From Actinotalea sp. JY-7876 (GTDB lineage: Bacteria; Actinomycetota; Actinomycetes; Actinomycetales; Cellulomonadaceae), in contig NZ_CP059493.1 in NCBI RefSeq assembly GCF_014042015.1, positions 1,488,001 to 1,552,000 of the forward strand: a DNA stretch of 64,000 bases, in the 5' to 3' direction. Of this stretch, positions 4,470 to 23,550 are shown piece by piece. The position numbers and the translations under genes are program-made. Numbering within the stretch: position 1 is the first letter of the stretch; each line of letters begins with the position of its first letter. The notes beneath the pieces were generated by a model. The model did no database searches, had not been told where the DNA came from, and saw nothing but the letters and a program-made list of their open reading frames with translations.

Positions 4470-4477
<8 letters not shown>
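2813..4477 (+). CDS. imuB: ImuB - catalytically inactive Y-family polymerase homologue
   Basis: A 554-residue Y-family (DinB/UmuC-like) protein. The palm motif that normally reads DxDxFFA is here VWVPDWPVLAAM (about residues 24-35), and the later SDE-type motif is RYHGSEEV. The metal-binding carboxylates are therefore replaced or displaced, which is the hallmark of ImuB as opposed to active Pol IV. It retains a helix-hairpin-like segment (LLRRLGLRTLADLARLPAADV) and a little-finger-like region. In mycobacteria ImuB is the hub that binds the beta clamp, ImuA' and DnaE2. The C-terminal extension after about residue 400 is Pro-rich. It overlaps imuA' by 4 nt and dnaE2 by 8 nt. Confidence 0.92.
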
Positions 4478-7853
<3,376 letters not shown>

Positions 7854-7901: not shown

Positions 7902-9170
7902 TCAGCGCTCGGCGCTGCCCACCGGCTCACCGTCGGCGATGCGTTCGTTCTCCGGTGGCGGACCCTGGTCGTGGTCCACCTCCGAGAAGTCCGTCGGTGG
8001 GTCGAGGTGCCGCAGGCGGGCGAACACCGCCCACGCCACCGCGATGAGCGGCACCGAGATCACGGCTCCGAGGATGCCCGCGACGAGCGTGCCCGCGGTG
8101 ACGCCGAGGGCGACCGCCACCGGGTGCAGCGAGACCTGCTTGCCCATGACCAGCGGGGTGAGGATGTGCCCCTCGAACTGGCCGATGAGCGCGATGCCGA
8201 TGCCCACGAGGATCGCGTTGACGATGCCGTTGGCGGCCAGGGCCACGACCATCGCGACCACCATCGCGAGCGGCGCACCGATGAGCGGGATGAAGGCACC
8301 GATGAACACCAGGACCGCGAGCGGCGCCGCGAGCGGGACGCCGAGCGCCAGCAGGATGATCACGGCCAGGATGCCGTCCGCCGCGGCGACGATGAACGTC
8401 CCGCGGGTGTAGCCCGAGAACGTGTACCAGGCGACCCCGCCGCCGGTGTGCCACGCCTCGCGGTTGCGCGCCGGCAGCTGGTTGAGGAACCACGTCCACA
8501 TCTCCGTGCCGCGCGTGACGAAGAAGACCGTGCAGAACGTCGCCAGGGCCAGCGCGGTGAGCACCTGCGCCGCCGATCCCGCGCTCGTCAGGGCCTGGCT
8601 CAGGATCGTGCTGCTGTTCTGCTGCAGCCACTCCTGGCCGGACGCGATCCAGTCCTGGACGTCCTCGCTCGTCACCGTGAGGTGCAGTGGGCTGTCCTCG
8701 AGGAACGACAGGATGGTGCCGATGCCCGTGTTGAACTGCTCACCGAGCGACGCCCACTGGCCGGCGACCGAGAGCCCGATGTACGTGAACAGCCCGACGA
8801 TCACGAGCAGCGACGCGAGGATCGACAGCGCGGTCGCGATCCCCCGCGGCATGAAGCGGTCCAGGACGTTGACGATCGGGCGCAGCACCGCGGTGAAGAC
8901 GAGCGCGAGGAACACCGCGATGAACAGGAGCAGCACGCGCGACGTCGCGTAGAAGACCAGGGCGACGGCAGCGACGACGACCAGCACGCGCCACGACCAG
9001 CCCGCGACGACGCGCAGCCACTGCGGCGCCGTCTCCTCGTAGCCGACCACCGACGGGTTCCGCCGGGCACCGGCGACCTTCTTCGCCGCCGGGCTCGCCG
9101 CGGCGAGGTGCCGCATGGAGATCTTGGAACGCTCCGGCTCGACGGTCGTCGACTCGTCCTGGTCGGTCAT
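7902..9170 (-). CDS. AI-2E-family (TqsA/YdiK/PerM) membrane transporter
   Basis: A 422-residue polytopic protein with about eight predicted membrane segments. Its arrangement is that of the AI-2E transporter family: an N-terminal pair (LRVVAGWSWRVLVVVAAVAL; LLLFIAVFLALVFTAVLRPI), the family phrase RGIATALSILASLL, a soluble amphipathic middle region at about residues 150-215, and a C-terminal block with GVPLAAPLAVLVFIGAFIPLIG and LIGQFEGHILTPLVMGKQVSLHP. The family includes TqsA (autoinducer-2 export in E. coli) and Na+/H+ antiporters, so the substrate is not decidable. GGAGGTGCG precedes the ATG. The gene is convergent with dnaE2, with 48 bp between stops. Confidence 0.92.
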   Translation of the reverse strand: MTDQDESTTVEPERSKISMRHLAAASPAAKKVAGARRNPSVVGYEETAPQWLRVVAGWSWRVLVVVAAVALVFYATSRVLLLFIAVFLALVFTAVLRPIVNVLDRFMPRGIATALSILASLLVIVGLFTYIGLSVAGQWASLGEQFNTGIGTILSFLEDSPLHLTVTSEDVQDWIASGQEWLQQNSSTILSQALTSAGSAAQVLTALALATFCTVFFVTRGTEMWTWFLNQLPARNREAWHTGGGVAWYTFSGYTRGTFIVAAADGILAVIILLALGVPLAAPLAVLVFIGAFIPLIGAPLAMVVAMVVALAANGIVNAILVGIGIALIGQFEGHILTPLVMGKQVSLHPVAVALGVTAGTLVAGILGAVISVPLIAVAWAVFARLRHLDPPTDFSEVDHDQGPPPENERIADGEPVGSAER

Positions 9171-9316: not shown

Positions 9317-9400
9317 GTCCGGGTGGCGGAATGGCAGACGCGCTAGCTTGAGGTGCTAGTGCCCGTATAGGGCGTGGGGGTTCAAGTCCCCCTCCGGACA
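9317..9400 (+). tRNA. tRNA-Leu (anticodon GAG)
   Basis: The 84-nt sequence folds as a class II tRNA. The acceptor stem is GTCCGGG paired with TCCGGAC (one G-T pair) plus discriminator A. The D-arm contains GGCGGAATGGCAGACGC, and the anticodon stem CTAGC/GCTAG has loop TTGAGGT (anticodon GAG). A long variable arm spans TGCCCGTATAGGGCG, and the T-arm is GGGGGTTCAAGTCCCCC. The 3' CCA is not encoded. It decodes CUC and CUU. Confidence 0.97.
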
Positions 9401-9420
9401 CTCGTTGAGACAGCGACCAG

Positions 9421-9460: not shown

Positions 9461-9705
9461 GGTGTGGCTGCGTGCACACCCGTGGGTCCACGCACACGGT
9501 GACGGCGCTGGACCGCAGCTCCCCGCCACGGCAGCCTGGGGCCGTGGACGTGCAGGGTCGGCAGGAGTCGGGTGCGACGCCGTCCGCGCACGGCACCACG
9601 GACTCGGTCGTCATCGACAACACCGATCCCGGCTGCCCCAAGGTCATCGACCCCACCACCGCTCACGCGTCACGCTGAACGCCGAGCAGAGGGCGCACGC
9701 TCGCC
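9461..9705. other. Non-coding stretch between the tRNA-Leu terminator and the Ntn-hydrolase promoter
   Basis: About 245 bp without a convincing gene. A short open frame at 9472-9678 has no ribosome-binding site and no recognisable motif, so I do not call it. I looked for a repeat of the tRNA 3' end that would mark an integrated element and saw none. Confidence 0.5.
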
Positions 9706-9734
9706 TTGTCGCCCTCCGGGGCCGGGCGTACCTT
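9706..9734 (+). promoter_or_regulatory. Promoter of the choloylglycine-hydrolase-family gene
   Basis: TTGTCG at 9706-9711 and TACCTT at 9729-9734 are separated by exactly 17 nt, a good sigma-70-type spacing. The predicted start site near 9741 leaves a leader of about 30 nt containing GGGGGGCGG ahead of the ATG at 9773. Confidence 0.6.
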
Positions 9735-9772
9735 GGCGGCACAGCAACATCAGCGCACCGGGGGGCGGTCGC

Positions 9773-10744
9773 ATGTGCACAGCAACGAACTACACGACCA
9801 AGAATCACTACTTCGGTCGGAATCTCGACCTGGAGCTCTCGTACAACGAGACGGTGACGGTCACGCCGAGGAACTTCGTCTTCGAGTTCCGCCGGGTGCC
9901 GGCGCTCGAGAGCCATCACGCGATCATCGGCATCGCGACGGTCGCCGAGGGGTATCCGCTCTACTACGACGCGACCAACGAGGCGGGCCTGAGCATGGCG
10001 GGCCTGAACTTCCCGGGGAACGCGGACTACAAGCCCGAGGCGGACGGCCGCACGAACATCACGCCGTTCGAGTTCATCCCGTGGATCCTCGGGCAGTGCG
10101 CGACGGTCGCCGACGCGCGGGCGCTCCTCGCGGACCTCAACCTCGTCGACATCCCGTTCAGCGCGCAGTTCCCGCTGTCGCCGCTGCACTGGATCATCTC
10201 CGACCGCGACTCCTCGGTCACCGTGGAGTCCGTCAAGGAGGGCCTGAAGGTCTACGACAACCCCACGGGCGTCCTGACCAACAACCCCACCTTCGACATC
10301 CAGCTGTTCAACCTCAACAACTTCATGAGCCTGTCGACCGAGCCGCCGAAGAACACGTTCTCCGACGCCCTGGACCTCGACACCTACAGCCGCGGCATGG
10401 GCGGCATCGGGCTGCCCGGTGACCTGTCCTCGGCGTCGCGCTTCGTCAAGGCGGTGTTCACGAAGATGAACTCCGTCTCGGGGGACTCCGAGTCGGAGTC
10501 GATCAGCCAGTTCTTCCAGATCCTCGGGTCCGTCGCGCAGCAGCGCGGCTGCGTGCAGGTGGGGGACGGGTACGAGATCACGATCTACTCGTCGTGCTGC
10601 AACACCGACACGGGCGTCTACTACTACACGACCTACGAGAACAGCCAGGTCACGGGCGTCGACATGCACAAGGAGGACCTCGACGGCAAGGAGCTGGCGA
10701 GCTACCCCCTGGTGAAGGGGCAGCAGGTCTCCGTGCAGAACTGA
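9773..10744 (+). CDS. Choloylglycine hydrolase / linear amide C-N hydrolase family protein (Ntn hydrolase)
   Basis: A 323-residue Ntn hydrolase of the bile-salt-hydrolase/penicillin-V-acylase family. Cys2 directly follows the initiator Met (MCTATNY) and becomes the N-terminal nucleophile. Arg16 and Asp19 (FGRNLD), Asn69 and Asn79 (ATNEAGLSMAGLNFPG), Asn170-171 (GVLTNNPTFDIQLFNLNNF) and an Arg in SSASRFVKAVF match the catalytic residues of the family. No signal peptide is seen, so it is probably cytoplasmic. The substrate may be a bile salt, a penicillin, an N-acyl-homoserine lactone or another amide and cannot be chosen from sequence. GC is lower than in neighbours (about 58% in 10261-10320), but third codon positions are almost all G/C. 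The dip reflects Asn/Tyr/Phe/Thr-rich protein composition, not recent transfer. Confidence 0.92.
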   Translation: MCTATNYTTKNHYFGRNLDLELSYNETVTVTPRNFVFEFRRVPALESHHAIIGIATVAEGYPLYYDATNEAGLSMAGLNFPGNADYKPEADGRTNITPFEFIPWILGQCATVADARALLADLNLVDIPFSAQFPLSPLHWIISDRDSSVTVESVKEGLKVYDNPTGVLTNNPTFDIQLFNLNNFMSLSTEPPKNTFSDALDLDTYSRGMGGIGLPGDLSSASRFVKAVFTKMNSVSGDSESESISQFFQILGSVAQQRGCVQVGDGYEITIYSSCCNTDTGVYYYTTYENSQVTGVDMHKEDLDGKELASYPLVKGQQVSVQN

Positions 10745-10819: not shown

Positions 10820-12298
10820 ATGATGACGCGAGCGGAGGGGGCCTACCTGGGTGCGGTCCGGGCCTTCCAGAACCCGATGCTGGACCTGCTCCACAAGCGT
10901 CACGCACCCCTGGTGGTGTCCCTGCTGTCCGTCGTGTTCACACCCGAGCGCCCGGCCGTGCCGGTGGCCGATGCCCACACCGAGGTGGGCGAGGCCCTCG
11001 AGCAGCTGCGCGCCGCGGGCCACCAGGACGACCTGCCCACCGCCACCGCGCGCGAGCTGTGCCGGCAGTGGGCCGACGCCGGCTGGCTCGTGCGCCACGT
11101 CCTGGACGACGACGTCGAGGTCTACCGGCTCTCGGCCCACGCCGTCGGCGCGCTCGAGGTCGCCGGACGCGCCGGCGGCGCGCGGGCGCGCGTGTCGCGG
11201 TCGCGCATCCGGACCCTGCTGGACGCCGTCGAGCGACTCGCCCAGGACGCCGACCCCGACGTCCTGGTGCGCATGGCGCGCCTGGACGCCGAGATGGCGC
11301 GGATCCGCGCCGAGCTCGACCGCCTGCAGCGGACCGGCACGGTCGAGGAGGTCGACGAGGAGCAGCTGCTCGAGGAGGCGGAGAACGTCCTGCACCTCGT
11401 GCGCGAGCTGCCGGCCGACTTCGCGCGCGTCGCCGAGTCGATCAAGGCGATGCAGCGGGACGTCGTCACGGCCCTGCGCCAGGACGTGCGCCCGACCGGC
11501 GACGTGCTGCGCGAGTACCTCGAGCGCGGCGAGCACGTCATGGAGTCGACCGCCGAGGGCCGGGCGTTCGCCGGGGCGCTGCGCCTCATCGGCGACCCGC
11601 AGCGCCTGGACGAGCTCGCCGCCCAGCTCGACGTCGTGCTGCGGCACCGGTTCGCCCACCGCCTGCCGGCCCAGCAGCGCGCGGAGCTGCGCGACCTCGG
11701 CCGCCGCATCGAGCAGGGCCTGGACCAGGTCTTCACCGCGCAGCGCGAGGCCTCGTACGTGATCACGACCCAGGTGCGCAACCACGACCCGCTGCGCGAC
11801 CGCCAGGTCGACGACCTGCTGCGCGAGGTGATGACGGGTCTGCAGGCGTGGACGCCGGACGCGCGCCGCGGCCAGCAGGTCGAGCCGCTGCGGCGCCTGC
11901 CCGTCGCCGAGGTCGACCACCTGCGCCAGACCGCCGGGGACCTGCGCCCGCCGCAGCCGCCCGCCGCGCTGGGCGTGGACGACGACGACGCCGACACCGA
12001 CGTCTCGCACCTGGAGGCCCGCGCCTGGGGCGGCCCGCAGTACACGGCGCTGCACGAGCAGCTGACGCGTCTGGCCGACCCCTCCGGGCAGGTCGACGTC
12101 GCCGCGGCCTTCGCGGCCGCCCCGAGCGCCCTCCGGCGACCGGTCGACCTGCTGGGCCTCCTGGAGATCGCGCACGACCTGGGCATGACCGAGACCGGCG
12201 ACCTCGCGTTCGTCGAGGCGCTGCGACCCGACGGGACGCGGCGCCGGTTCGCGTTCGGTGCGGTGACGACACGGATGAGGGACGAGACCGATGAGTGA
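10820..12298 (+). CDS. jetA: JetA / MksF-like kleisin (DUF3375) of a Wadjet-type SMC complex
   Basis: A 492-residue DUF3375 protein, starting [19 protein letters not shown] followed by [18 protein letters not shown]. Typical features are an N-terminal helical/winged-helix part, a long charged helical middle ([20 protein letters not shown]) and repeated acidic stretches. In Wadjet and MksBEF complexes this subunit is the kleisin linking the SMC heads. It is first in a tight three-gene operon; jetB starts 8 nt before its stop. Two ATGs (10820, 10823) are adjacent. The set resembles Wadjet type I, which recognises and cleaves small circular plasmid DNA, but the nuclease subunit is missing here (see jetC). 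Confidence 0.9.
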
Positions 12299-12944
12299 GA
12301 CCACCGAGACGGCGTTCATCGCGCCCGTGCCGATGGAGGAGGACCCGACCGAGCTGTTCGCCGGCGACTCGGGCACCCTCGACGCCGACGTGCGGCGTCT
12401 CCTCGTGCGCCTCCTGCAGCGGCGGTTCCTCCTCGCGGACCGCAACCGCGCGCAGTGGCGCACCCTCGTGGAGAACCAGCAGGTCGTCGAGTCGCGCCTG
12501 CACGACCTGTTCGTGCACCTCGTCGTCGACCACGAGCGCGGCGTGGCGTACAAGAAGCAGGTCCGCTCGGCCGAGCTCGACGTGCCGGTGCTGCTGCGCG
12601 ACGAGGCGTACACGCGGGCCGAGACGCTCGTCCTGGTGCACCTGCGCACGGTCTTCCAGCGGGAGCGGGGCGCCGGCCAGGCGTCGGTCCGCGTCGACGT
12701 GGAGGAGATCGAGCAGACCGCGCTGACGTACTTCGACCCCGACGACTCGAACGTCGCCTCGCGCCAGCGCGAGATCCGCGCCGCCGTCGCGCGGCTCGCG
12801 AAGGACGGGCTGATCGAGGAGGAGTCGGAGGGGCGCTACCGCGTCACGCCGCTCGTCGAGATCGTGCTGAGCAACGCGCGGCTCGCCGAGCTGCGCGACT
12901 GGCTCCGCGAGCAGGGACGCACGAACGCGGAGGACGCGCGATGA
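12291..12944 (+). CDS. jetB: JetB / MksE-like subunit (DUF4194)
   Basis: A 217-residue DUF4194 protein made of tandem winged-helix-like segments. [15 protein letters not shown] and [19 protein letters not shown] come early, then a C-terminal [32 protein letters not shown]. In SMC-like Wadjet/Mks complexes this KITE-type protein (MksE) binds the kleisin as a dimer. The start overlaps the end of jetA by 8 nt, and its stop overlaps the jetC start (ATGA). Stoichiometric co-translation is therefore likely. It has no enzymatic motif of its own. Confidence 0.9.
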
Positions 12945-15900
12945 CCATGGTGGACACCCTCTTCGGCCTGGTGCCGGCGGCCTCGACGGGCCAGCAGTGG
13001 GTCGCGCGCGAGCTGCAGCTCGTCAACTGGGGCGGCTACGACGGCCACCACGCGGTGCGGCTGGCCTCGACCGCGACGCTGCTCTCCGGGGCCTCCGGCT
13101 CGGGCAAGTCGACGCTCATGGACGCGTACATCGCGCTGCTGATGCCGCACACGACGCCGTTCAACGGCGCCTCGAACGGCGGCGTCGTCGGCCGCCCGCG
13201 CGGCAAGGACCAGCGCAACATCGTGTCCTACGCGCGCGGCAAGCTCGACGAGTCGCGCACCGAGGACGGCACGCGCGAGCGCGTGCTGCGCGGCGACGGC
13301 CGGGACACGTGGTCCGCGATCGCGGTGACGTGGGCGGACCAGTCCGAGCGCCTCTTCACGGCCGTGCGCGCGTGGTACGTCCCCTCCGCGGCGCGCACGC
13401 TCGACGACGTCGTCGCGGTGCGGGCGACGTGCGACGGCGCCTTCGACCTGCGCGACCTCGAGCCCGCCGCGGCCCAGCGGCTCTCCCGCCCGGCCGTCAC
13501 CGCCGCCGGGCTGAGCCCGTTCGACACGGACCGTGAGTACACGGCGCGCCTGCACCTGACGCTGGGGATCGGCGCGACGGGCGACGGCGCCAAGGCCGTG
13601 GCCCTGCTCGGGCGCATCCAGGCGGGCCAGCAGATCGCCACCGTGGACGCCCTCTACAAGGCGATGGTGCTCGAGGAGCCCGTCACCTTCGCGACCGCCG
13701 ACGCCGTCGTCGAGCAGTTCGACAAGCTCAGCGGGACGCGCGCCCAGATGGTCACCGCGCGCCAGCAGGTCACGGCGCTCGAGCCGATCCGCGAGCACCG
13801 CGAGCGCATCGAGGAGGCCGGCGAGCGGCTCCGGCTGATCGACGCCCTCGGGACCGTCGACGACAGCGCGTCGCCCATCGCGCTGTGGCGCGACGAGCGA
13901 CGGCTCGGTCTGCTGCGGGCGGTGGAGGACGAGCTCCAGGGCGCGCACCAGGACGCCCGTCGCGTGGTCCGCGAGACGACGGCCCGGGTCGACGCCGCGC
14001 GCTCGGAGCTCGACGGCGTCCGGCAGACGCTGTGGGCGTCCGGGGGCGACCGGCTGGCCACCGCCCAGCGCGAGCTGCGCGGCGCGCAGGAGCGGCGCGA
14101 CCGCGCCGCCGGCGCCCGGCGGCGGGTCGACGAGGTGGTCGAGGCGGCCTTCGGGCGACCGCTCACGTCCGCGGCGGAGTTCGACGCGCTCGTCGCGCAG
14201 GCGGGCGCCGCGCTGCGCGACGACGACGCCAAGACCGCGACCCGCCGGGCCTTCGCCGAGGCGATGGCCGAGCGCAAGGAGGCGCGCGCCGAGCTGGCGG
14301 CGCTGCGCGAGGAGCGGGCCGAGGTCGCGCGCCGTACCGACAACATCCCGGGCGACCTGCACGCGGCGCGCGAGGCCCTGGCGCGCGCCGCGGGCCTGGA
14401 GCCGCAGGACCTGCCCTTCGTGGCCGAGCTCGTCGAGGTCCGTACCGAGCACGAGCCCTGGCGGGACGCGTTCAACCTCGCCCTCGGTGGCTTCGCCACG
14501 CTGCTGCTCATCGACGTGGCGCACCTGCGCGCGTTCCGCGCCGCGGTCGACGCCGTGCCCGTCGCGCGGCGCGTGCGCTTCGAGGGCGTCCCGACGGGGA
14601 TGGGTGACGACGTCGCGCTGGACCCGCGCACGCTGCCCGGGCGGCTCGACGTGCGCCCCGGCCCGTTCAGCGGGTGGCTCCGGGGGGAGCTCGCGAGCAG
14701 GTTCGCGTACGTCTGCGTCGACACCCCCGGGGAGCTCGCGCAGCACGCCAAGGCGCTGACGCGCGCCGGCCAGGTCTCCGAGGGGCGGCGGGGCGCGCAC
14801 GGCGGCCGCGGCCGCACCAACGTGCTGGGCTTCACGAACACCCGCCGGCTCGAGCACCTCGACCGGCAGGACGCGCACGCGCAGGAGCGCCTCCGGCTCG
14901 CCGACGCCGAGGTCGTCGCCGCCGAGCAGCGGCTCGACCGGCTCGAGGTCCAGCGCGACGCCTACGTGCAGCTCGGCGAGCTCACCTGGGAGCAGGTCGA
15001 CGTCGTCGGGGCCGAGGCCGAGGTGGTGCGGTGGCAGCGGGTCATCGACGACGTCACGTCGGGCAGCCCCGAGGTGGCCCGCCTCCAGCGGCGGGTGGCG
15101 GAGCTCGAGACGCGCATCCGCGCCCTCACCGAGGAGCTCGGCCGGGTCAAGGGCGCCGCCGACGAGCTCGAGGGGCGCTGGACCGCGACGACCGACGAGG
15201 TCGACGTCGCGCAGCGTGCGCTCGACGCGGCGCGCTCGGCCGGGACGACCGTCGACGAGGAGCAGGGCGCCTACCTCGAGCGGCTGCTCGGCGCGACGGG
15301 GGAGCCGGCCGGTGCCGCGGCGCGACCGGCCGGACCCGTCGAGGCGCTGCGGCGGTTCGACGAGACGCTCGCCCGCGCGGCGGGCCTGCTCCGCGGGGAC
15401 CGCGAGGCGGCCCAGCAGATGCTGGTCGCGGCCCGCGACGCCCTGCGGCGGACGTTCGAGACGTTCGTCGAGCGGTGGCCCGACCCGAACCTGGGCACCG
15501 ACCCCGAGGACTCGTACGGCGACTTCGCGCGGCTCCTCGCCGACCTCGAGGCCGACGGCCTGCACGGGCTCGAGGCCGAGTGGCGTCGGAGCCTGCTGCG
15601 GCTGTCCGGCAACGACCTGGCGGACCTGCACAACGGGCTCGCCCGCTCCGTGCGCGAGATCAAGGAGCGCATCCGGCCGGTCAACGACATCCTCGCGAAC
15701 CTGCCCTTCGCGGACGACGACCACCGGCTGCGGATCGACGCGCGCGACGTCCAGTCCACCGTGGTGGCGCGCTTCCGCGCGGAGCTGCGGGACCTGCGCG
15801 AGGTCCTCGCGACCGACGCGACCGACGCCGAGCGCGAGCGGCGGTACCTCCGGATGGCCAAGGTGGTCGACCGCATCCGGCGGACGGCGCCCGACTTCGC

Positions 15901-16321
15901 CGAGCTCGTCGACGTCCGGCGGCACGTGCGCCTCAGCGCGGAGAAGGTGGACCTCGAGGGCCGCCACGTGGCGCTGTACGACCACATCGGCGAGAAGTCC
16001 GGCGGGGAGTCCCAGGAGCTCGTCGCGTTCATCGTCGGCGCGGCCCTGCGCTACCAGCTCGGCGACGCCGGCGCGGACCGCCCGCGCTACGCCCCGGTGT
16101 TCCTCGACGAGGCGCTGATCAAGGCGGACGCACGGTTCACCGGCCGGGCCATCGGTGCGTGGCGCGGCCTGGGCTTCCAGCTCGTGATCGGGGCGCCGAA
16201 CGACAAGTTCGGTGCGCTCGAGCCGCACGTCGACCTCAAGTACGTGGTGCTCAAGGACGCGTCCGGCCGGTCGCGGACGAAGCCGATCGCCGGGGTCCCG
16301 GATGGTGCCGCGCCGGCCTGA
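12941..16321 (+). CDS. jetC: JetC / MksB-like SMC ATPase
   Basis: A 1,126-residue SMC-like ATPase. Walker A is [14 protein letters not shown] at about residues 50-60. Long charged coiled-coil arms run from about residue 230 to 480 and 640 to 960, flanking a hinge-like hydrophobic domain ([20 protein letters not shown]). At the C-terminus the ABC signature is [11 protein letters not shown] near residue 1020 and Walker B is [12 protein letters not shown] near 1052. This is the motor that extrudes DNA loops in Wadjet/MksBEF. The operon ends here: the next gene, 93 bp on, is a PadR regulator, and no TOPRIM-type JetD (DUF3322/DUF2220) lies on either strand nearby. The complex may work as a nuclease-free condensin or use a JetD encoded elsewhere. 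Confidence 0.94.
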
Positions 16322-16373
16322 CGCCGGTGTGACGACCGCGACCGACGACCGGGCGGCGGGTCCGGGCGCGGCG

Positions 16374-16406
16374 CTATATACGGCGGGTATACATCGTGCG
16401 TATAGT
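16374..16406 (+). promoter_or_regulatory. PadR promoter with candidate operator
   Basis: An AT-rich island in a very GC-rich region: CTATATACG (16374-16382) and CGTATAG (16399-16405) form an imperfect inverted repeat around a central palindrome GTATAC (16387-16392). TATAGT at 16401-16406 is a good -10 element 7 nt before the padR ATG. PadR-family repressors usually bind such symmetric AT-rich sites over their own promoter, so autoregulation of the whole operon is inferred. Confidence 0.6.
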
Positions 16407-16413
16407 CGTCGGC

Positions 16414-16947
16414 ATGTCCGTCGGCCACACCCTGCTCGGGTTGCTCCAGTCCGGTCCCTGTCACGGTTACGACCTCAAGCGCTCGTACGACGAGCGCTTC
16501 GGGCACGGCCGGCCCCTCGCGTACGGGCAGGTGTACTCCACGCTCGCGCGCCTGCTGAAGCACGGCCTCGTGGAGGTCGAGCCCGAGCCGGGGGAAGGGC
16601 CGGACCGCAAGCGGTACGCGATCACCGACGCGGGCGTCAGCGACGTGGGGGCGTGGCTCGCGGAGCCGGAGAAGCCGGAGCCGTACCTGCAGAGCACCCT
16701 GTACACGAAGGTGGTCCTCGCCCTCCTGACCGGACGCGACGCGACGGAGGTGCTCGACACCCAGCGCGCCGAGCACCTGCGGCTCATGCGCGAGCTCACG
16801 CGCCGCAAGACCGACGGCGACCTCGCCGACCAGCTGGTCTGCGACCACGCCCTGTTCCACCTCGAGGCCGACCTGCGGTGGCTCGAGCTCACCGCGGCCC
16901 GGCTCGACCAGCTCGCCGGCACCGTCCGGCCGAGGCGGACCCCGTGA
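16414..16947 (+). CDS. PadR-family transcriptional regulator
   Basis: A 177-residue repressor. The N-terminal winged helix begins MSVGHTLLGLLQSGPCHGYDLKRS and continues AYGQVYSTLARLLKHGLVEVE with a wing PDRKRYAITDAG. A C-terminal PadR_C-type helical dimerisation domain follows (EVLDTQRAEHLRLMRELTRR). The ATG at 16414 is preferred over an in-frame GTG at 16396, because homologues begin at MSV and the TATAGT box overlaps the longer form. It overlaps the ABC ATPase gene by 4 nt (GTGA), so it very likely controls that exporter; PadR regulators of this type commonly sense the drug or peptide handled by the linked ABC system. Confidence 0.92.
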   Translation: MSVGHTLLGLLQSGPCHGYDLKRSYDERFGHGRPLAYGQVYSTLARLLKHGLVEVEPEPGEGPDRKRYAITDAGVSDVGAWLAEPEKPEPYLQSTLYTKVVLALLTGRDATEVLDTQRAEHLRLMRELTRRKTDGDLADQLVCDHALFHLEADLRWLELTAARLDQLAGTVRPRRTP

Positions 16948-17633
16948 CCGCCGACCGCGCCCCGCTCCTGGTCGCCGAGGAGCTGCGCCTGGCCTACGGG
17001 CCCACCGAGGCGCTGTCCTCGGCCTCCGTCCGCCTCCACGCGGGAGAGGTCCTCGCGCTGATGGGGCCGTCGGGGTCGGGCAAGTCGACGCTGCTGCACT
17101 GCCTCGCCGGCATCCTGCGGCCGGACTCTGGCCGGGTGTCCTACGACGGCCGCGACCTGGCCGCGATGTCCGACGCGGAGCGCAGCGCCCTGCGCCGCTC
17201 GGAGTTCGGGTTCGTGTTCCAGTTCGGCCAGCTCGTGCCCGAGCTCAGCTGCCTGGAGAACGTCGCCCTGCCTCTGCGCCTCGCCGGTGCGAGCCGCCGC
17301 GACGCGCACCGGACCGCCCTGGAGTGGCTGGTCCGCCTGGAGGTCGCCGACGTCGCCGCCAAGCGACCGGGGCAGGCGTCCGGCGGCCAGGGCCAGCGGG
17401 TCGCCGTGGCGCGCGCGCTCGTCACCCGGCCCCGCGTGGTCTTCGCCGACGAGCCGACGGGCGCGCTCGACTCGCTCAACGGCGAACGCGTCATGCAGCT
17501 CCTCGTCGCGGCGGCCCGGGACACGGGCGCCGCCGTCGTCCTGGTCACGCACGAGGCGCGGGTCGCGGCGTACTCCGACCGCGAGGCCGTCGTCCGCGAC
17601 GGACGAGTGCGCGAGCAGGAGTACGCGCGGTGA
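16944..17633 (+). CDS. ABC transporter ATP-binding protein (MacB/LolD-like)
   Basis: A 229-residue ATPase with Walker A GPSGSGKST (about residues 45-53), Q-loop FVFQFGQLVPELS, signature ASGGQGQRVAVARAL, Walker B VVFADEPTGALDS and switch His in LVTHEARVA. The EPTGALDS and FQFGQLVPELS motifs place it with ATPases that drive FtsX-fold permeases (MacB, LolD, BceA types). The signature reads ASGGQ instead of LSGGQ, a minor change. It starts with GTG overlapping the padR stop and ends overlapping the first permease start (GTGA). It is the only ATPase in the padR operon and may serve all three permeases downstream. Confidence 0.95.
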   Translation: MTADRAPLLVAEELRLAYGPTEALSSASVRLHAGEVLALMGPSGSGKSTLLHCLAGILRPDSGRVSYDGRDLAAMSDAERSALRRSEFGFVFQFGQLVPELSCLENVALPLRLAGASRRDAHRTALEWLVRLEVADVAAKRPGQASGGQGQRVAVARALVTRPRVVFADEPTGALDSLNGERVMQLLVAAARDTGAAVVLVTHEARVAAYSDREAVVRDGRVREQEYAR

Positions 17634-19975
17634 CGACGACGGCGCCGCCGCCGACCACGACGGGGTCGCGTCCCGCGAGGCGCCGGCCCGCCCCGGTCCG
17701 GTGGGCGCAGGAGCTCGGCCTCGGGCTGCGGCTGAGCACGGGCGGCGACCGCTCGGGCTGGGCACGCCTCGCGCTCATCGCGGGCGGCATCGGCCTGGGG
17801 GTGCTGGCGCTGCTCCTGGCTGCGTCGGTGCCGTCCGTCCTGGCGGCGAGGGACGCGCGCTTCGACGCCCGAGCCATCGACTGGACCGGCGACCAGGGCC
17901 CGGCACGGGACGACACGCTCCTCGTGGCAGCGGCGTTCTCCGACTTCCGCGACGACATGATCATGGTCGTCCTGGTGCAGGCGGAGGGCCCGGCGGCGCC
18001 GGCGCCGCCGGGCGTGGAGCGGCTGCCCGGGCCGGGCGAGATCGTGGTCTCGCCCGCGCTCGCGCGCCTGCTCGGGTCGCCGGACGGTGCGCTGCTCGAG
18101 GGCCGCTGGGGCGAGGAGGTCGTGGGCACCATCGGGCCCGCGGGGCTCGCGGGCCCGGACGAGTACCTCGCCTACGCCGGGACGGACGTCCTCGAGCCCG
18201 CCCTGAGCTCACGCATCGACACCTGGGGGAGCACCTCCCGCGGCGCCGGCACCCGCGACGTCCTGCTCGTGCTGCTGGGCGCGGTCCTGCTCGCCGTCCT
18301 GCTCGTCCCGGTCCTGATCTTCGTGGCGACCGCCGTCCGGTTCGGCGGCGAGGCCCGCGACCGCAGGCTCGCGGCGCTGCGGCTCGTCGGCGCGGACGCC
18401 GCCATGACGCGCCGAGTCGCCGCCGGCGAGACGCTGGGCGGCGCGCTCGCCGGCCTGGTGGTCGGCGGCGCCCTGTACGCCCTCGTGCGCGGCGCCGTGC
18501 CGGGCCTCGTGCCGCGCTCCCTCGGCTTCTTCCCCGGTGACCTGCGGCCGGACGTCGGCCTGGCGACGCTCGTCGTCGTGCTCGTCCCGGTCCTCGCCGT
18601 CGTGGCCACCCAGGCGGCGCTCCGGCGGGTCGTGGTCGAGCCGCTCGGCGTCGTGCGCCACGCCGCCGAGCGGCGGCGCCGCCTGTGGTGGCGGCCCGTG
18701 CTGCCGCTGGTGGGCCTGGTGCTGCTGCAGCCCCTGAGGTCCGGCCCTCCCGTCACGTCCGCAGCCCAGGTCTCGGTCGCCGCCGGCCTCGTCGTGCTGC
18801 TGCTCGGCGTGGCCTTCCTGCTGCCGTGGCTGGTCGAGGCGACCGTGCGCCGGTCGGGCGCCGGTCCCGTCGCCTGGGAGCTCGCGATGCGGCGCCTCCA
18901 GCTCGAGAGCGGCACGGCCGTGCGCGCCGTCTCGGGCGTCGTCGTCGCGGTCACCGGGCTCATCGCGCTGCAGGGCATGACCGCCGCGATCGAGCACGAG
19001 TACGCGGCGGACACCGCTCGGGTCGACAGGCACTTCGACGCCCGGGTCACCGACTACCTCGTGGCCGGCGAGGACGACCCGGCCGCGCGGTGGCGGGACG
19101 TCCTCGCCGGCTCGCCGGGCGTGGCGGAGGTCGACGTCGTGAGCACCGTGGCGGTGGTGGCCGGCGGGTCGGCCGGCACCGCGCACGTGGGCTCCTGCGC
19201 GACGCTCGCCGTGCAGGCGTCGCTCGGCTCCTGCCGCGACGGCGACGTCTTCGTCGTCCCGGCCGCCGGTGGCGCGCGGCCCGCGGCGGGCGCGACCCTC
19301 GTCGCCGAGGACGCGCCGGGTGCGACGTGGACCGTGCCCGACGGCGTGCAGGTCGTCGAGCCCTCGGAGGAGCTTCGAGCGTTCGGGCCCCTGCCCCAGT
19401 TCGAGCTGTTCGTGACCCCCGCCGCTGCGGCCGGGTTCGCTCCGCCGCCCAGCTGGGTGACCGCGCTGGTCGTCCTGGACCCGACCGACGCCGACGCGCT
19501 CGAGCGCTTGCGGACGACCGTGGGCCGGGCCGATGTCCGTACCGACCTGGCCTCGTTCGAGCCGGAGGACGTCACCCCGACGCTCCGGGCCGTCCGCGAG
19601 GTGCTCCTGGTGGGGACGGTCGGCCTGCTGGTCGTCATCGGCGCGAGCATGCTGGTGAACGTCGTGGAGCAGCTCCGCGAGCGCCGACACCTGCTCGCGG
19701 CCCTCTCGGCGCTCGGCACGCGGCGGCGGACGCTCGGCGCCTCCGTCATGCTCCAGGTCGCCGTGCCCATGGTGCTGGGTCTCGTCCTCGCCGCGGCGAC
19801 CGGCACCGCCCTCGCCACGGCGCTCCAGGCGAGCGCCGAGGCGCCGCTGGTCGTCGACTGGCGCGGGATCGGGCTCACGACGGGCGTCGCGGCGCTCGTC
19901 GTGGTCGCCACCACGGCGGCGAGCCTGCCGCTGCTGTGGCGGCTCACGTCCCCGGGTGGCCTGCGGCGGGAGTGA
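17630..19975 (+). CDS. FtsX-like ABC transporter permease 1
   Basis: A 781-residue permease with an N-terminal membrane segment (ALIAGGIGLGVLALLLAAS) and a first FtsX block around residues 205-330 (LLVLLGAVLLAVLLVPVLIF; GALAGLVVGGALYAL). Further membrane helices follow at about 360-470, then an extracytoplasmic region of roughly 170 residues. The C-terminal FtsX block contains LVGTVGLLVVIGASMLVNVV and LAALSALGTRRRTLGASVML. The RLAALRLVGADAAMTRRV and RRHLLAALSALGTRRR phrases are coupling-helix-like and typical of the family. The GTG start overlaps the ATPase stop. Exported or sensed substrate is unknown. Such systems act mechanically on periplasmic partners or in peptide-antibiotic resistance. 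Confidence 0.9.
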   Translation: MTTTAPPPTTTGSRPARRRPAPVRWAQELGLGLRLSTGGDRSGWARLALIAGGIGLGVLALLLAASVPSVLAARDARFDARAIDWTGDQGPARDDTLLVAAAFSDFRDDMIMVVLVQAEGPAAPAPPGVERLPGPGEIVVSPALARLLGSPDGALLEGRWGEEVVGTIGPAGLAGPDEYLAYAGTDVLEPALSSRIDTWGSTSRGAGTRDVLLVLLGAVLLAVLLVPVLIFVATAVRFGGEARDRRLAALRLVGADAAMTRRVAAGETLGGALAGLVVGGALYALVRGAVPGLVPRSLGFFPGDLRPDVGLATLVVVLVPVLAVVATQAALRRVVVEPLGVVRHAAERRRRLWWRPVLPLVGLVLLQPLRSGPPVTSAAQVSVAAGLVVLLLGVAFLLPWLVEATVRRSGAGPVAWELAMRRLQLESGTAVRAVSGVVVAVTGLIALQGMTAAIEHEYAADTARVDRHFDARVTDYLVAGEDDPAARWRDVLAGSPGVAEVDVVSTVAVVAGGSAGTAHVGSCATLAVQASLGSCRDGDVFVVPAAGGARPAAGATLVAEDAPGATWTVPDGVQVVEPSEELRAFGPLPQFELFVTPAAAAGFAPPPSWVTALVVLDPTDADALERLRTTVGRADVRTDLASFEPEDVTPTLRAVREVLLVGTVGLLVVIGASMLVNVVEQLRERRHLLAALSALGTRRRTLGASVMLQVAVPMVLGLVLAAATGTALATALQASAEAPLVVDWRGIGLTTGVAALVVVATTAASLPLLWRLTSPGGLRRE

Positions 19976-20037
19976 TGTGAGCGGCAGGTGGCGCCGCCTC
20001 CGCCCTGGGGACGATGGCCACGCTCTCACCCCGCCCC

Positions 20038-20043
20038 TACGAT
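20038..20043 (+). promoter_or_regulatory. Possible internal -10 element before FtsX-like permease 2
   Basis: TACGAT lies in the 95-bp gap between the first and second permease genes, with a start site predicted near 20050 and GGGGGAGG downstream at 20055-20062. It suggests a second promoter inside the padR-controlled block. No convincing -35 was found. Confidence 0.4.
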
Positions 20044-20070
20044 CGGCCGGGGCCGGGGGAGGTGGGCGTG

Positions 20071-23000
20071 GTGCAGGAGCCGCGGGCGAGCGCACGCGCG
20101 AGGCCGGCGCGCCCGCGGGTGCCCTGGGGCTGGCTCGCCGCCACGGTCCTGCGTCGCGCCCGCGCCCAGTGGCGCGTGCTCGCGGTGGTCGGGCTGGTGG
20201 CGCTGCTCGTGACGACGTCGCTCGGCACCCTGACGCTGCTCGTCACCCGGTCGGAGGGCGAGGCGGTGCGGGCGGCGCTCGCGACGACGCCGGCCTCGGA
20301 GCTCGAGGTGCGCGTCGTCGCCCAGGACGTCGAGGGCGGCACGGCGGCGGCGCAGGAGCGCGCGGCGCTCGCGGTCTCCGCCGCGATCGGCGTGCCGGTG
20401 ACGGCGCGGGCGCTCGACGCCGAGTCCGGGCTCGCCGAGGTCCCGCGGGAGGGCAGGCGGTCCGCGCTCACGTGGGTCGCCGTGCGCCAGGGCGTCGAGG
20501 ACCACGCCGTCCTGGTCGACGGCCGCTGGCCGGACCCGGCGGCCACGGGCGCAGTCCTGGAGGTGGCGGTGCCCGAGGCCGGTGCCGCCGCCCTCGGCGT
20601 CGTCACGGGGGACACCATCCCGCTCGTCGACCCGCGGGAGGGGGAGCCGGCCGTCGGGGCCCTCGTGGTCGGCCTCTTCCGTGCCGGTGACCTCGACGAC
20701 CCGTGGTGGCAGCAGGACCGCCTGCGCGGCGTGGGGCACGACCCCGTCTTCCCGGTGCCCTTCGCGGGAGGCACGGTCGTGACGGACGGCGTCGGGCCCC
20801 TGGTCGTCGCCCAGGCCGGGTTCGACGCGTCGCCCCTGACCGTCGCGGAGCTGACCGTGCACTACACGCCCGACGTCGACGGGGTCGGGCCGGGTGACCT
20901 CGCGCGGCTCGGCGTCGACCGCGAGACCGCACGCGACGGGGTGGCCGACGCGCTCCGGGGCACGGTCTCGGGGGTCAGGTACTCCAGCGACCTGGAGACC
21001 GTCGCGGGCAGGGCGGCCGGGGCGCTCGTCGTGACCCGCAGCGGGGTCGTCGTCGTGGCGCTGCTGCTGGTCGTGGTGGCCGTGGCGACGCTGACGCAGA
21101 GCGCCCGTCTGCTCGCCGAGGACCGCAGGACCGAGCACGAGCTCATGCGGGCCCGGGGCTCCTCGCGGGCCCAGCTCGTCGCCGCGGGCGCGCTCGAGTC
21201 GTTCGCGCTGGGGGGCGGCGCGGCGGTCGCGGGCACGCTGCTCGCGACGCGGGTCCACGCGGCGCTCGTGCAGGGCACCACGCTGGCAGGCACGGCCGGG
21301 GCCGACGTCGGCCTCCTGCCGTGGCTCGTGGCGGCGGGCGCGGCGCTGCTCGTCACCGCGGTCGGTGTGACGCCGCTGCTCGGCCCCGGCGACACGTTCG
21401 TCGAGAGCGAGCAGGCCAGGGCCCGGCCGGAGCGGCAGGCGGCGCTCGCCCGCGCCGGTCTCGACGTCGTGCTCGTGGTGCTGGGCGGCGTGGCGCTGTG
21501 GCAGCTGCAGACCTACGGCAGCCCGGTGCGCCGCTCCGACGGCGGGGTCGCGATCGACCCCGTCCTGGTCGTGGGGCCGGCCGTGGTGCTCACGGCCGCG
21601 ACGCTGCTCGCGCTGCGCCTGCTGCCCGCCGCCTCGGCGCTCCTGGAGCGACTGGCCGCGCGGGGCCGCGGCATCGTGCCGCAGCTGGCGGGGTGGGAGA
21701 TCGGCCGGCGCTCGGGACGCGCCGCCACGGCCGTCCTCCTGGTGGCCGTGACGGTCGCCGTCGCCACGTTCACGCGCTCGTACCTCAGCACCTGGTCCAC
21801 GTCGCAGGCGGAGCAGGCCGCCTTCTCCGTCGGGGCACCCGTCGTGGTGGAGTCGGCGGCCTCCCAGACGCCGGCGGTGCTCGCGGAGGGGGCGCGGGCG
21901 GTGGGTGGCGGCGAGCCCCAGCCGGCGCTGGTCGCGAGCGCCCGGCTCCGGCAGCCGACCCAGGCCGGGACGGGCGCGCGGACGGGGCACCCGGTCGCGG
22001 TGCTCGCCGCGACGGCGTCCGCCCGCCAGCACCTCGCCGAGGGCCGCGTCGGCCGTGAGGGCGGCGCCGCCGTCGCGGCGCTGCCGGGCGCGGCGCCGTC
22101 CGGCGAGGGGATCGTCCTGCCGGACGACGCCGTCGGCCTCGCGGGCACGATCGACCTCAGCGCGGGAGACCCGCCGCCCGGGGTGGTGCTCGCCTCGCGG
22201 CTGCTGCTCGAGGACGCGGCCGGGCTCGTCAGCGCCGTGCGCCTCCCGTTGGCCTTCTCCGGCGAGGCGGCGGGCTTCGCGGTGCTGCTCGACGGCGTCC
22301 GCGCCCCCGCCGCGACGATCGCGGCGACGGCCACCGAGGCGGACTGGCAGGGCGGTGCCCACCGGACGCCGCTGCGCGTCGTCGGCCTGGAGGTCCAGCT
22401 CGTGGTCGGCGCCCCGGAGCTGCTGGCCTCGTCCGGCGGCTATCGGACGACCGTGGAGGTGCGGGACCTCGCAGCCGTCGTCGCGGGCGTCGGGCCGGTC
22501 TCGGCGACCGAGCCGGGCCCCGCCGCGAATCCGCTCCCGTGGCCCTCGGCGCACGCGGTGCCCCTCGCCGGGCTCGCCGCGCCGCTCCCCGCCGAGCCGG
22601 GGCCCACGAGCGCCGTGGTCGAGGAGCTCCCGGCGCCGGCCGCCGGGACGCGCGCCTGGCCGGGCGTCGTCGTCGCGGGGGACCTGCGCGACCTGCGGCA
22701 GACCGGGGCCCGGGCGGCGGCGACCACCTGGCCGGAGGCGGCCGCGCGCCCCGGGGCCGTCGTCGTCCCCGCGGTGATCAGCGAGAGCGCGGCCGCGCGC
22801 TGGGGCAGCGGGCCGGGTGGCCGCCTCGTCCTGGGTGTCGGCGACGTGTCCGTCGACCTGGTGGTGACCGACGTCGTGCCGCGCGTGCCGACGTCGCGGT
22901 CCGGCGACCAGGTGGCGGTGGACCACACGTCCCTGGTACGCCGTCTCGCGGTGCTGGGGCGCGAGGACCTGGACCCGACGCACTGGTGGGTGGACGTCCC

Positions 23001-23550
23001 GGCCGCGCAGGTGGACCACTACCTCGCCGGCCTGCCCGACGACGCGGCCGGCGTCCCGCTCGGCGAGAGCGGGCGGAGCGTCGCAGGGCTGACGCGCGAC
23101 CTGCGGGAGGGACCGCTGCACGTCACGCTGCCCCTCGCGCTGCGGCTCGTCACGCTCGCGGCGGCCCTGGTGGCCCTCCTCGGCTACGCGGTGCACACGA
23201 CGATGACGCTCCGCTCGCGCGACGTCGAGCTGGCCCAGCTGCGCGCGGTCGGGCTGCAGCGCTCGCGCCTGGTCGGCGTCGTGACCGTGGAGGCGCTGGT
23301 GGTGTGCGGCCTCGGCGGGGTGGTGGGCGTCGCGGTCGGGCTCCTCGTCGCCCGCGTGGTCGGACCGCTGGTCGCCGTCGCGCCCGACGGGAGCGCGCCG
23401 GTGCCGTCCGTGGTCGTCGACGTGCCGTGGGGGGACGTCGGGCTCGTGCTCGCCCTCGTGGCGGCGGCCGCCGCGGTGACGGCCGTGGGTGCGGCGACCC
23501 GGCAGCGGACCGCCGACCCGGGCGCCATCCTGCGATCGGCGTCGCGGTGA
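20071..23550 (+). CDS. FtsX-like ABC transporter permease 2 (very large)
   Basis: About 1,159 residues. The N-terminal membrane anchor is WRVLAVVGLVALLVTTSLGTL. A large extracytoplasmic domain of about 250 residues precedes an FtsX block (VVVVALLLVVVAVATLTQSARLL; RTEHELMRARGSSRAQLVAAG). More helices near residues 450-560, a second extracytoplasmic domain of over 400 residues, and a final FtsX block (LVTLAAALVALLGYAVHTTM; VELAQLRAVGLQRSRLVGVV) follow. The GTG at 20071 is chosen because GGGGGAGG sits 8 nt upstream. An ATG at 20014 would lie before the likely promoter; GTGs at 20062 and 20068 are also possible. It overlaps permease 3 by 4 nt (GTGA). Substrate unknown. Confidence 0.85.
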   Translation: MQEPRASARARPARPRVPWGWLAATVLRRARAQWRVLAVVGLVALLVTTSLGTLTLLVTRSEGEAVRAALATTPASELEVRVVAQDVEGGTAAAQERAALAVSAAIGVPVTARALDAESGLAEVPREGRRSALTWVAVRQGVEDHAVLVDGRWPDPAATGAVLEVAVPEAGAAALGVVTGDTIPLVDPREGEPAVGALVVGLFRAGDLDDPWWQQDRLRGVGHDPVFPVPFAGGTVVTDGVGPLVVAQAGFDASPLTVAELTVHYTPDVDGVGPGDLARLGVDRETARDGVADALRGTVSGVRYSSDLETVAGRAAGALVVTRSGVVVVALLLVVVAVATLTQSARLLAEDRRTEHELMRARGSSRAQLVAAGALESFALGGGAAVAGTLLATRVHAALVQGTTLAGTAGADVGLLPWLVAAGAALLVTAVGVTPLLGPGDTFVESEQARARPERQAALARAGLDVVLVVLGGVALWQLQTYGSPVRRSDGGVAIDPVLVVGPAVVLTAATLLALRLLPAASALLERLAARGRGIVPQLAGWEIGRRSGRAATAVLLVAVTVAVATFTRSYLSTWSTSQAEQAAFSVGAPVVVESAASQTPAVLAEGARAVGGGEPQPALVASARLRQPTQAGTGARTGHPVAVLAATASARQHLAEGRVGREGGAAVAALPGAAPSGEGIVLPDDAVGLAGTIDLSAGDPPPGVVLASRLLLEDAAGLVSAVRLPLAFSGEAAGFAVLLDGVRAPAATIAATATEADWQGGAHRTPLRVVGLEVQLVVGAPELLASSGGYRTTVEVRDLAAVVAGVGPVSATEPGPAANPLPWPSAHAVPLAGLAAPLPAEPGPTSAVVEELPAPAAGTRAWPGVVVAGDLRDLRQTGARAAATTWPEAAARPGAVVVPAVISESAAARWGSGPGGRLVLGVGDVSVDLVVTDVVPRVPTSRSGDQVAVDHTSLVRRLAVLGREDLDPTHWWVDVPAAQVDHYLAGLPDDAAGVPLGESGRSVAGLTRDLREGPLHVTLPLALRLVTLAAALVALLGYAVHTTMTLRSRDVELAQLRAVGLQRSRLVGVVTVEALVVCGLGGVVGVAVGLLVARVVGPLVAVAPDGSAPVPSVVVDVPWGDVGLVLALVAAAAAVTAVGAATRQRTADPGAILRSASR

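Follow-up and report, generated by a model that had tools for sequence, protein, structure and literature searches.

We identified a jetABC operon that lacks its nuclease gene, and the best explanation of this locus, which we hold at a probability of about one half, is that it encodes a nuclease-free SMC motor of the JetABC/MksBEF type, derived from Wadjet type I by loss of jetD and probably acting as an auxiliary condensin. The operon lies within a stretch of 64,000 nucleotides (hereafter the window; bases 1488001-1552000) of the complete, one-contig genome of Actinotalea sp. JY-7876 (3,546,809 bp). In the proposed scheme, a JetABCD operon of Wadjet type I would have lost jetD with JetA, JetB and JetC left intact. 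Like other JetABC complexes, the remaining subunits would assemble as a dimer-of-dimers, load on DNA and extrude loops with ATP; without JetD, extrusion would presumably end without a cut. The complex may then serve as an auxiliary condensin of the MksBEF type beside the canonical SMC complex and aid chromosome folding or segregation.

The jetABC operon and the search for JetD

The three genes form a single same-strand cluster (Table 1) with overlaps of 8 nt (jetA/jetB) and 4 nt (jetB/jetC). All ATPase motifs of JetC were intact, including Walker A (nt 13088), the signature KSGGESQ (nt 15995) and Walker B, VFLDEA (nt 16097). As in Wadjet type I (JetABCD; 8dk1-8dk3, 8as8, 8q72), the three SMC-core subunits are encoded in one operon in the order jetA-jetB-jetC, with overlaps and with intact SMC ATPase motifs in JetC, and the best PADLOC models for the window were JetA1, JetB1 and JetC1. 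Likeness to MukBEF was distant: the Pfam MukB N-terminus matched with 27 bits, and the NCBIfam MukB equivalog model gave 20 bits, far under its cut-off of 699. The original prediction, made from the DNA letters, had described three overlapping genes with DUF3375, DUF4194 and SMC-ATPase features and intact motifs, with which both the profile matches and the motif scan agreed. It had also placed padR next to jetC at a gap of 93 bp; the padR start codon (16414) in fact follows the end of jetC after 92 nt.

Table 1. Features in and upstream of the jetABC operon, in window coordinates.
Feature	Position	Strand	Remarks
DNA polymerase III alpha-type gene	4470..7853	+	PF07733 261 bits; landmark and dN/dS yardstick
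AI-2E family transporter gene	7902..9170	-	PF01594 175 bits; landmark, match in 19/19 Actinotalea genomes
tRNA-Leu(GAG)	9317..9401	+	belongs, with the dnaE2-like and AI-2E transporter genes, to the shared landmark that precedes the operon in Actinotalea
jetA / mksF (kleisin, DUF3375)	10820..12298	+	492 aa; PF11855 414 bits; PADLOC PDLC00464 JetA1 695 bits; PDB JetA 8q72 E 4e-13
jetB / mksE (KITE subunit, DUF4194)	12291..12944	+	217 aa; PF13835 145 bits; PF21980 MksE 32.1 bits (cut-off 27); PDLC00473 JetB1 365 bits; PDB JetB 8dk1 E 2e-4
jetC / mksB (SMC-like ATPase)	12941..16321	+	1126 aa; PDLC00517 JetC1 1638 bits; AAA_29 + SbcC_Walker_B; PDB JetC 8dk2 E 2e-52
jetD slot of jetD-containing relatives	16322..16413		92 nt in the window; no jetD remnant found

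Several searches for the nuclease gave the same answer. When the six-frame translation of the entire window was searched with a JetD profile made from relatives, only a chance-level match (E 2.5) came up, in line with the prediction that no JetD gene adjoins the operon. JetD_C (PF09983) had no match in the whole genome, in a search that matched the positive control C. glutamicum and also picked up the JetD of a congener (G012). The JetD protein of a relative found no match in the genome at E<=10 (a search without a control of its own), and DUF3322 (PF11795) gave two sub-cutoff matches (14.7 and 13.2 bits; cut-off 22), both far from the operon. The JetD Toprim nuclease of Wadjet type I was found neither in the operon nor in the genome, and no JetD-type match rose above cut-off in the genome-wide search for JetD/MksG homologues. 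The JetD_C, JetD-protein and DUF3322 searches of this complete genome rule out a JetD elsewhere in it, so the suggestion that the nuclease sits at another locus was refuted for JetD-type nucleases within the reach of these searches. An assembly artefact as the cause of the missing gene was likewise rejected, because the genome is complete on one contig and the same state occurs in many other assemblies. Canonical SMC (931 bits) and ScpB were also detected in the genome. It has the composition of an MksBEF-type system, with homologues of MksF, MksE and MksB without MksG as a putative second condensin beside the canonical SMC complex.

The neighbourhood of the operon in the window had several features of its own. 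A gene of the choloylglycine-hydrolase family (PF02275, 343 bits; 9572-10744) lies between tRNA-Leu and jetA, and the region 3' of jetC (16414-23550) contains padR, a gene for the ATPase of an ABC transporter and two long frames of the FtsX permease type. Within 5 kb of the other operons that we compared, nothing corresponded to the choloylglycine-hydrolase gene or, among frames of at least 90 aa, to padR and the FtsX-type permease frames.

Distribution of jetD among related operons

We searched 200 genomes of the family Cellulomonadaceae and found JetC-like matches in at least 154 and JetD_C in 31. The JetC clade of the window, defined by at least 46% identity to the window JetC, was present in at least 106 family genomes, a count that includes split or partial JetC matches (G012, G053, G067, G093) and leaves out fragmentary ones (G045, G118, G123, G139). 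Unlike Wadjet type I, 82 of these genomes had no JetD_C match anywhere, as was the case for the window genome; many of the clade genomes are drafts, in which a gene can fall into an assembly gap and be missed. Reading of 186 loci gave 148 distinct operons after identical JetC proteins were collapsed (the named relatives are the best 80 of 230 loci and are biased to close relatives). There was no jetD after jetC in 115 operons, a full jetD in 18 and a remnant in four; the other 11 ended at a contig edge. The remnants were in L058 (Cellulomonas sp. URHE0023), L080 (Nocardia carnea), L111 (Microbacterium helvum) and L127, that of L080 being weak (E 0.13) and counted for its start exactly at the expected jetD position. 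JetD_C was present in 24 clade genomes, 11 of which had the match beside the clade's own jetC. G176 had a remnant there; in G012 and G128 JetD_C was on other short contigs, with linkage argued for G012 only, and in nine genomes (G032, G042, G079, G097, G114, G148, G150, G153, G197) it was, by coordinates, beside a second, distant JetC. G192 possessed a lone partial JetD_C with an internal stop (L226, G192:C15), away from its jetABC. JetC types further removed from that of the window (33-36% identity) also seemed to be jetD-less, for example L224 (G164), L225 (G184) and L228 (G063), in which the clade-built JetD profile had no match, and seven genomes with distant types (G020, G031, G044, G063, G069, G082, G184) had no JetD_C match.

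The occurrence of the operon differed among genera. It is accessory in Cellulomonas (g20), where the JetC clade was found in 52 of 81 genomes by hand count, and in Actinotalea (6/19). In the genus designated g21, JetC was present in 18/18 genomes, 17 of them jetD-less and all of these in a deep clade; the sole jetD-containing member (G145) was more divergent. A second JetC with JetD_C beside it was detected in three of the 18 (G097, G114, G148), and its JetB was identified for G097. In 35 loci (32 jetD-less, two jetD-containing and one at an edge) jetA is preceded by the leucyl-tRNA synthetase gene (leuS), the two lying 10-812 bp apart (median 36). This was the case for 16 of the 18 g21 loci, the remaining two being on short contigs. 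Given the linkage to leuS and the presence in every g21 genome, the operon resembles a set of housekeeping genes in this genus.

The JetC tree (FastTree), from which the 11 contig-edge loci, including L012 of G012, were excluded for gain and loss counts, had jetD-containing tips scattered among jetD-less ones, and needed a minimum of 14 changes, each of which is made necessary by starred branches. Shuffled labels gave 17.1 changes, and 6 of 500 shuffles were as low for jetD-containing tips; the jetD label is thus only loosely tied to the JetC tree. Under a model in which jetD never returns, 32-39 losses were needed, the range being set by the treatment of weak branches. Pairwise distances of JetD and JetC were correlated (r 0.675 with G012 and 0.684 without it; 0/5000 permutations as high in each case). 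The JetD tree agreed broadly with the JetC tree, with many weak inner JetD branches and a conflict in Nocardia, where L079/L083 were joined by L086 in the JetD tree and by L082 in the JetC tree. The metal-binding motifs ENR and GDxD, in our reading of part of PMC10123090, were retained in all 18 full JetDs and in that of G012. The correlated distances and the retained motifs together favour loss over repeated gain, and jetD was probably lost repeatedly within the JetC clade.

In some cases the loss could be followed in place. Sister pairs with common flanks in which jetD is missing from one member included L055/L159 (4/4 downstream genes), L052/L075, L045/L051 and L065/L066, and L084/L175 had one gene in common on each flank. 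No common flank genes were found within 5 kb for L068/L072, L053/L058, L082/L088 and L100/L112, and L054/L155 were not comparable, so that the evidence for in-place loss comes from the flank-sharing pairs. Transfer of the whole operon between lineages is an alternative that may apply at every site. The JetDs of L045, L052, L084 and L159 had tip branches 4-5 times longer than those of their JetCs (median ratio over 18 tips, 1.59) with the catalytic motifs kept, a pattern that could stem from an arms race or from constraint having relaxed ahead of loss.

The site of the window itself is recognizable throughout Actinotalea. The loci read at the AI-2E gene had an adjoining DNA polymerase III alpha-type gene, presumably dnaE2, and tRNA-Leu(GAG), and in all six operon-bearing genomes of the genus the operon was placed after this landmark. 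Over the 148 operons, the AI-2E family occurred in the flanks of 27, 26 of which had it upstream on the minus strand. In the 13 other Actinotalea genomes no jet gene was detected at E<=1e-4 in the stretch by the landmark (L262 stops ~0.5 kb past it), and even G005 and G008, with the AI-2E genes closest to that of the window (89%), had no operon; jetABC is dispensable in this genus. JetD_C was found in one of the 19 genomes. Five of the six operon-bearing genomes, including that of the window, had no JetD_C match and the sixth, G012, had JetD on a separate contig, so the possibility that close relatives always carry jetD here did not hold. In G012 the operon runs off its contig within jetC and another contig begins with jetD. 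Behind this jetD are genes with matches close to the landmark in G017 and G004, whose sites lack the operon, and the two contigs therefore probably belong to a single site. G012, the window, L041 and L009 formed a clade of four, with an SH-aLRT value of 100 for the group as a whole, and in the JetC-only tree, built without G012, the window fell in a clade of 19 without jetD (16 jetD-less, 3 edge). With the jetD-containing G012 inside the clade of four, the loss of jetD probably occurred within Actinotalea and looks recent for the window lineage.

Conservation of JetABC without JetD

Pairwise dN/dS values (Nei-Gojobori, own script) for JetC were 0.057-0.23 in 17 pairs without jetD, 0.13-0.21 in seven mixed pairs and 0.21-0.23 in two pairs with jetD; the highest value among the first group was that of the window and L041 (0.23). 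Values for JetB were noisier, up to 0.46 in one pair. When window jetA and jetB and the initial 1430 nt of jetC were compared with Actinotalea loci L008, L009, L011 and L012, dN/dS was 0.11-0.28, similar to the polymerase gene of the same loci (0.20-0.22) and mostly below their AI-2E gene (0.27-0.39). Since dS was similar across the jet, polymerase and AI-2E genes, the data fit vertical descent at the site. Conserved columns were compared in 11 close pairs with and without jetD (9 for JetB; one partner was the remnant-bearing L058), which replaced an earlier set of 18 pairs (15 for JetB) whose later pairs were poorly matched. Columns invariant only without jetD versus only with it numbered 24 versus 10 in JetA (p 0.024), 11 versus 6 in JetB (p 0.33) and 38 versus 22 in JetC (p 0.052). 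Within these pairs there was no notable set of columns invariant in the presence of JetD alone, and the tilt was toward jetD-less members, which argues against relaxation. As judged from the sequences, JetABC without JetD is under purifying selection and appears to be conserved no less than with JetD.

The reading frames were also largely intact. Split jetA or jetB was seen in six of 148 operons, four without jetD (L059, whose locus is cut by a contig end, L099, L112 and L220) and two with it (L082, L083), and a jetC frame break in one (L220). A scan for the three ATPase patterns was passed by 105 of 115 jetD-less JetCs and by 18/18 JetCs with jetD; nine of the ten failures were due solely to Walker A GTGK in place of GSGK, the tenth being the broken frame of L220. 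Single stops flagged inside several JetC matches were taken to be natural stops, as JetC in the fetched loci, except L220, is uninterrupted up to its C-terminal end.

These data bear on a reading in which jetD was discarded as a costly stray nuclease and jetABC is a fading remnant. The four jetD remnants (with that of L080 weak), the absence of the whole operon from 13 of 19 Actinotalea genomes and the apparently recent loss in the window would all fit such decay. However, breaks were few, dN/dS was far under 1, jetD-less sisters had more rather than fewer invariant columns, and 30 operons make up a persisting clade without jetD whose JetCs are 46-55% identical to that of the window; this explanation is already disfavoured and we regard it as improbable. 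A JetD-less Wadjet I was described in Stenotrophomonas maltophilia, where it is the commoner of two Wadjet I variants and conserved in one defence island, and was called probably inactive (part of PMC11680222), whereas the evidence for selection argues against inactivity in the clade of the window. Conservation without JetD implies that JetABC still does something useful, and the apparent loss of the cutter many times with the motor kept suggests that the motor has its own job.

Possible roles of the motor without its cutter

JetABC is a dimer-of-dimers SMC motor, and JetD is a cutter thought to be triggered once a small circle has been fully extruded (part of PMC10586767). Among the three options of the original prediction, a condensin-like MksBEF without nuclease fits best, with no JetD found, motifs intact and purifying selection; its chromosomal part is what we infer. 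A role in chromosome organisation or segregation is the most likely one in our analysis, on the basis of conservation, the 18/18 g21 genomes and precedent. It is preferred by analogy to MksBEF of Pseudomonas aeruginosa PAO1, which is also a MukB-like condensin beside canonical SMC. The chromosome role was shown there (part of PMC7485682), whereas for the window it is a proposal. Against the condensin reading, the patchy occurrence in Actinotalea (with G005 and G008 among the genomes without the operon) and Cellulomonas is more like defence than housekeeping, the JetC dN/dS of the window and L041 is the highest of the 17 jetD-less pairs, and the loss in the window looks recent, so that long JetD-free service lies outside the record of this lineage. 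In addition, MksBEFG of C. glutamicum, the best-studied actinobacterial relative, does not fold the chromosome (part of PMC7083940). The MksBEFG/EptABCD systems of C. glutamicum and Mycobacterium smegmatis are actinobacterial JetABC relatives as well, but they carry MksG/JetD and act on plasmids.

The same patchiness would fit a different function, in which JetABC extrudes small circles fully and compacts or holds them, lowering copy number, expression or partition without cutting, similar to what was proposed for Smc5/6 on viral circles. Such nuclease-free restriction of plasmids is also consistent with chromosomal sites that contain jetD in one species and lack it in another, with reports that shape and size sensing come from JetABC (part of PMC10586767), and with mks deletions that alter the copy number of some plasmids in C. 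glutamicum (parts of PMC7083940 and PMC10123090). However, deletion of mksG in C. glutamicum affected plasmids in a similar way to deletion of mksB or mksF (part of PMC10123090), and B. subtilis needed all four subunits (part of PMC10586767). Moreover, JetC is present in every g21 genome and pairs of other-type JetC with JetD in only 3/18, which argues for a non-defence job, at least in g21. Plasmid silencing, although rather unlikely overall, ranks second to the condensin reading because the system is patchy in Actinotalea.

A third possibility, that another effector acts in trans and is recruited by JetABC in place of JetD, appears very improbable. The N-terminus of JetB (window 12315-12380) contains two motifs, FIxPVxMEEDP and LFxGDxGxL, present with or without JetD; the former was looser in the deep jetD-less clade and was not seen in outgroup JetBs, which have a looser form of the latter. 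LFxGDxGxL was kept in 112 of 113 jetD-less and 15 of 16 jetD-containing readable JetBs, and in another system an IFDR motif at the N-terminus of JetB is reported as a contact point for JetD (part of PMC10586767), so that a partner surface may remain in use. However, LFxGDxGxL could not be tied to the IFDR site and is carried by outgroup JetBs too, and as a read-out of JetD docking the N-terminus was equally conserved with and without JetD. A same-strand frame (>=90 aa, GC-filtered) started within 200 bp of jetC in 39 of 115 jetD-less loci, with no common downstream gene; the largest downstream family (13 members) was a carbohydrate phosphorylase, a conserved chromosomal neighbour. A new neighbouring effector was rejected, as no downstream family (frames of at least 90 aa, within 5 kb) recurred at jetD-less operons except conserved chromosomal neighbours. 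The option of another effector thus gained no support from the operon neighbourhoods, padR and the FtsX-type frame after jetC in the window likewise having no equivalent at the compared operons.

Returning to the condensin reading, JetD-less MksBEF is already known, and its repeated origin by loss of jetD under selection seems to be the new part. A search of the literature, mostly at the level of titles and abstract openings, found no published account of repeated jetD loss in Cellulomonadaceae; Paenarthrobacter lasiusi has a table entry with JetA-JetB-JetC only (part of PMC11719660). The origin of condensins such as MksBEF from plasmid-defence systems is an open question in a review (part of PMC10586767). 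We tentatively propose, at somewhat lower confidence than for the locus itself, that JetABC is a dual-use motor switched by one gene, which would be a plasmid nuclease system with jetD and a chromosome-serving condensin without it. The nuclease-free state would then have arisen dozens of times independently in Cellulomonadaceae and other actinobacteria, and would have reached core-gene status at least once. Closely related sisters that have the same motor but differ in the presence of the nuclease, in some cases at one and the same site, make a direct test of what JetABC does by itself possible. The labels "Wadjet defence" for jetABC and "inactive" for jetD-less operons may both be wrong, and if JetABC is indeed such a switchable motor, the steps from immunity to housekeeping could be followed tip by tip.
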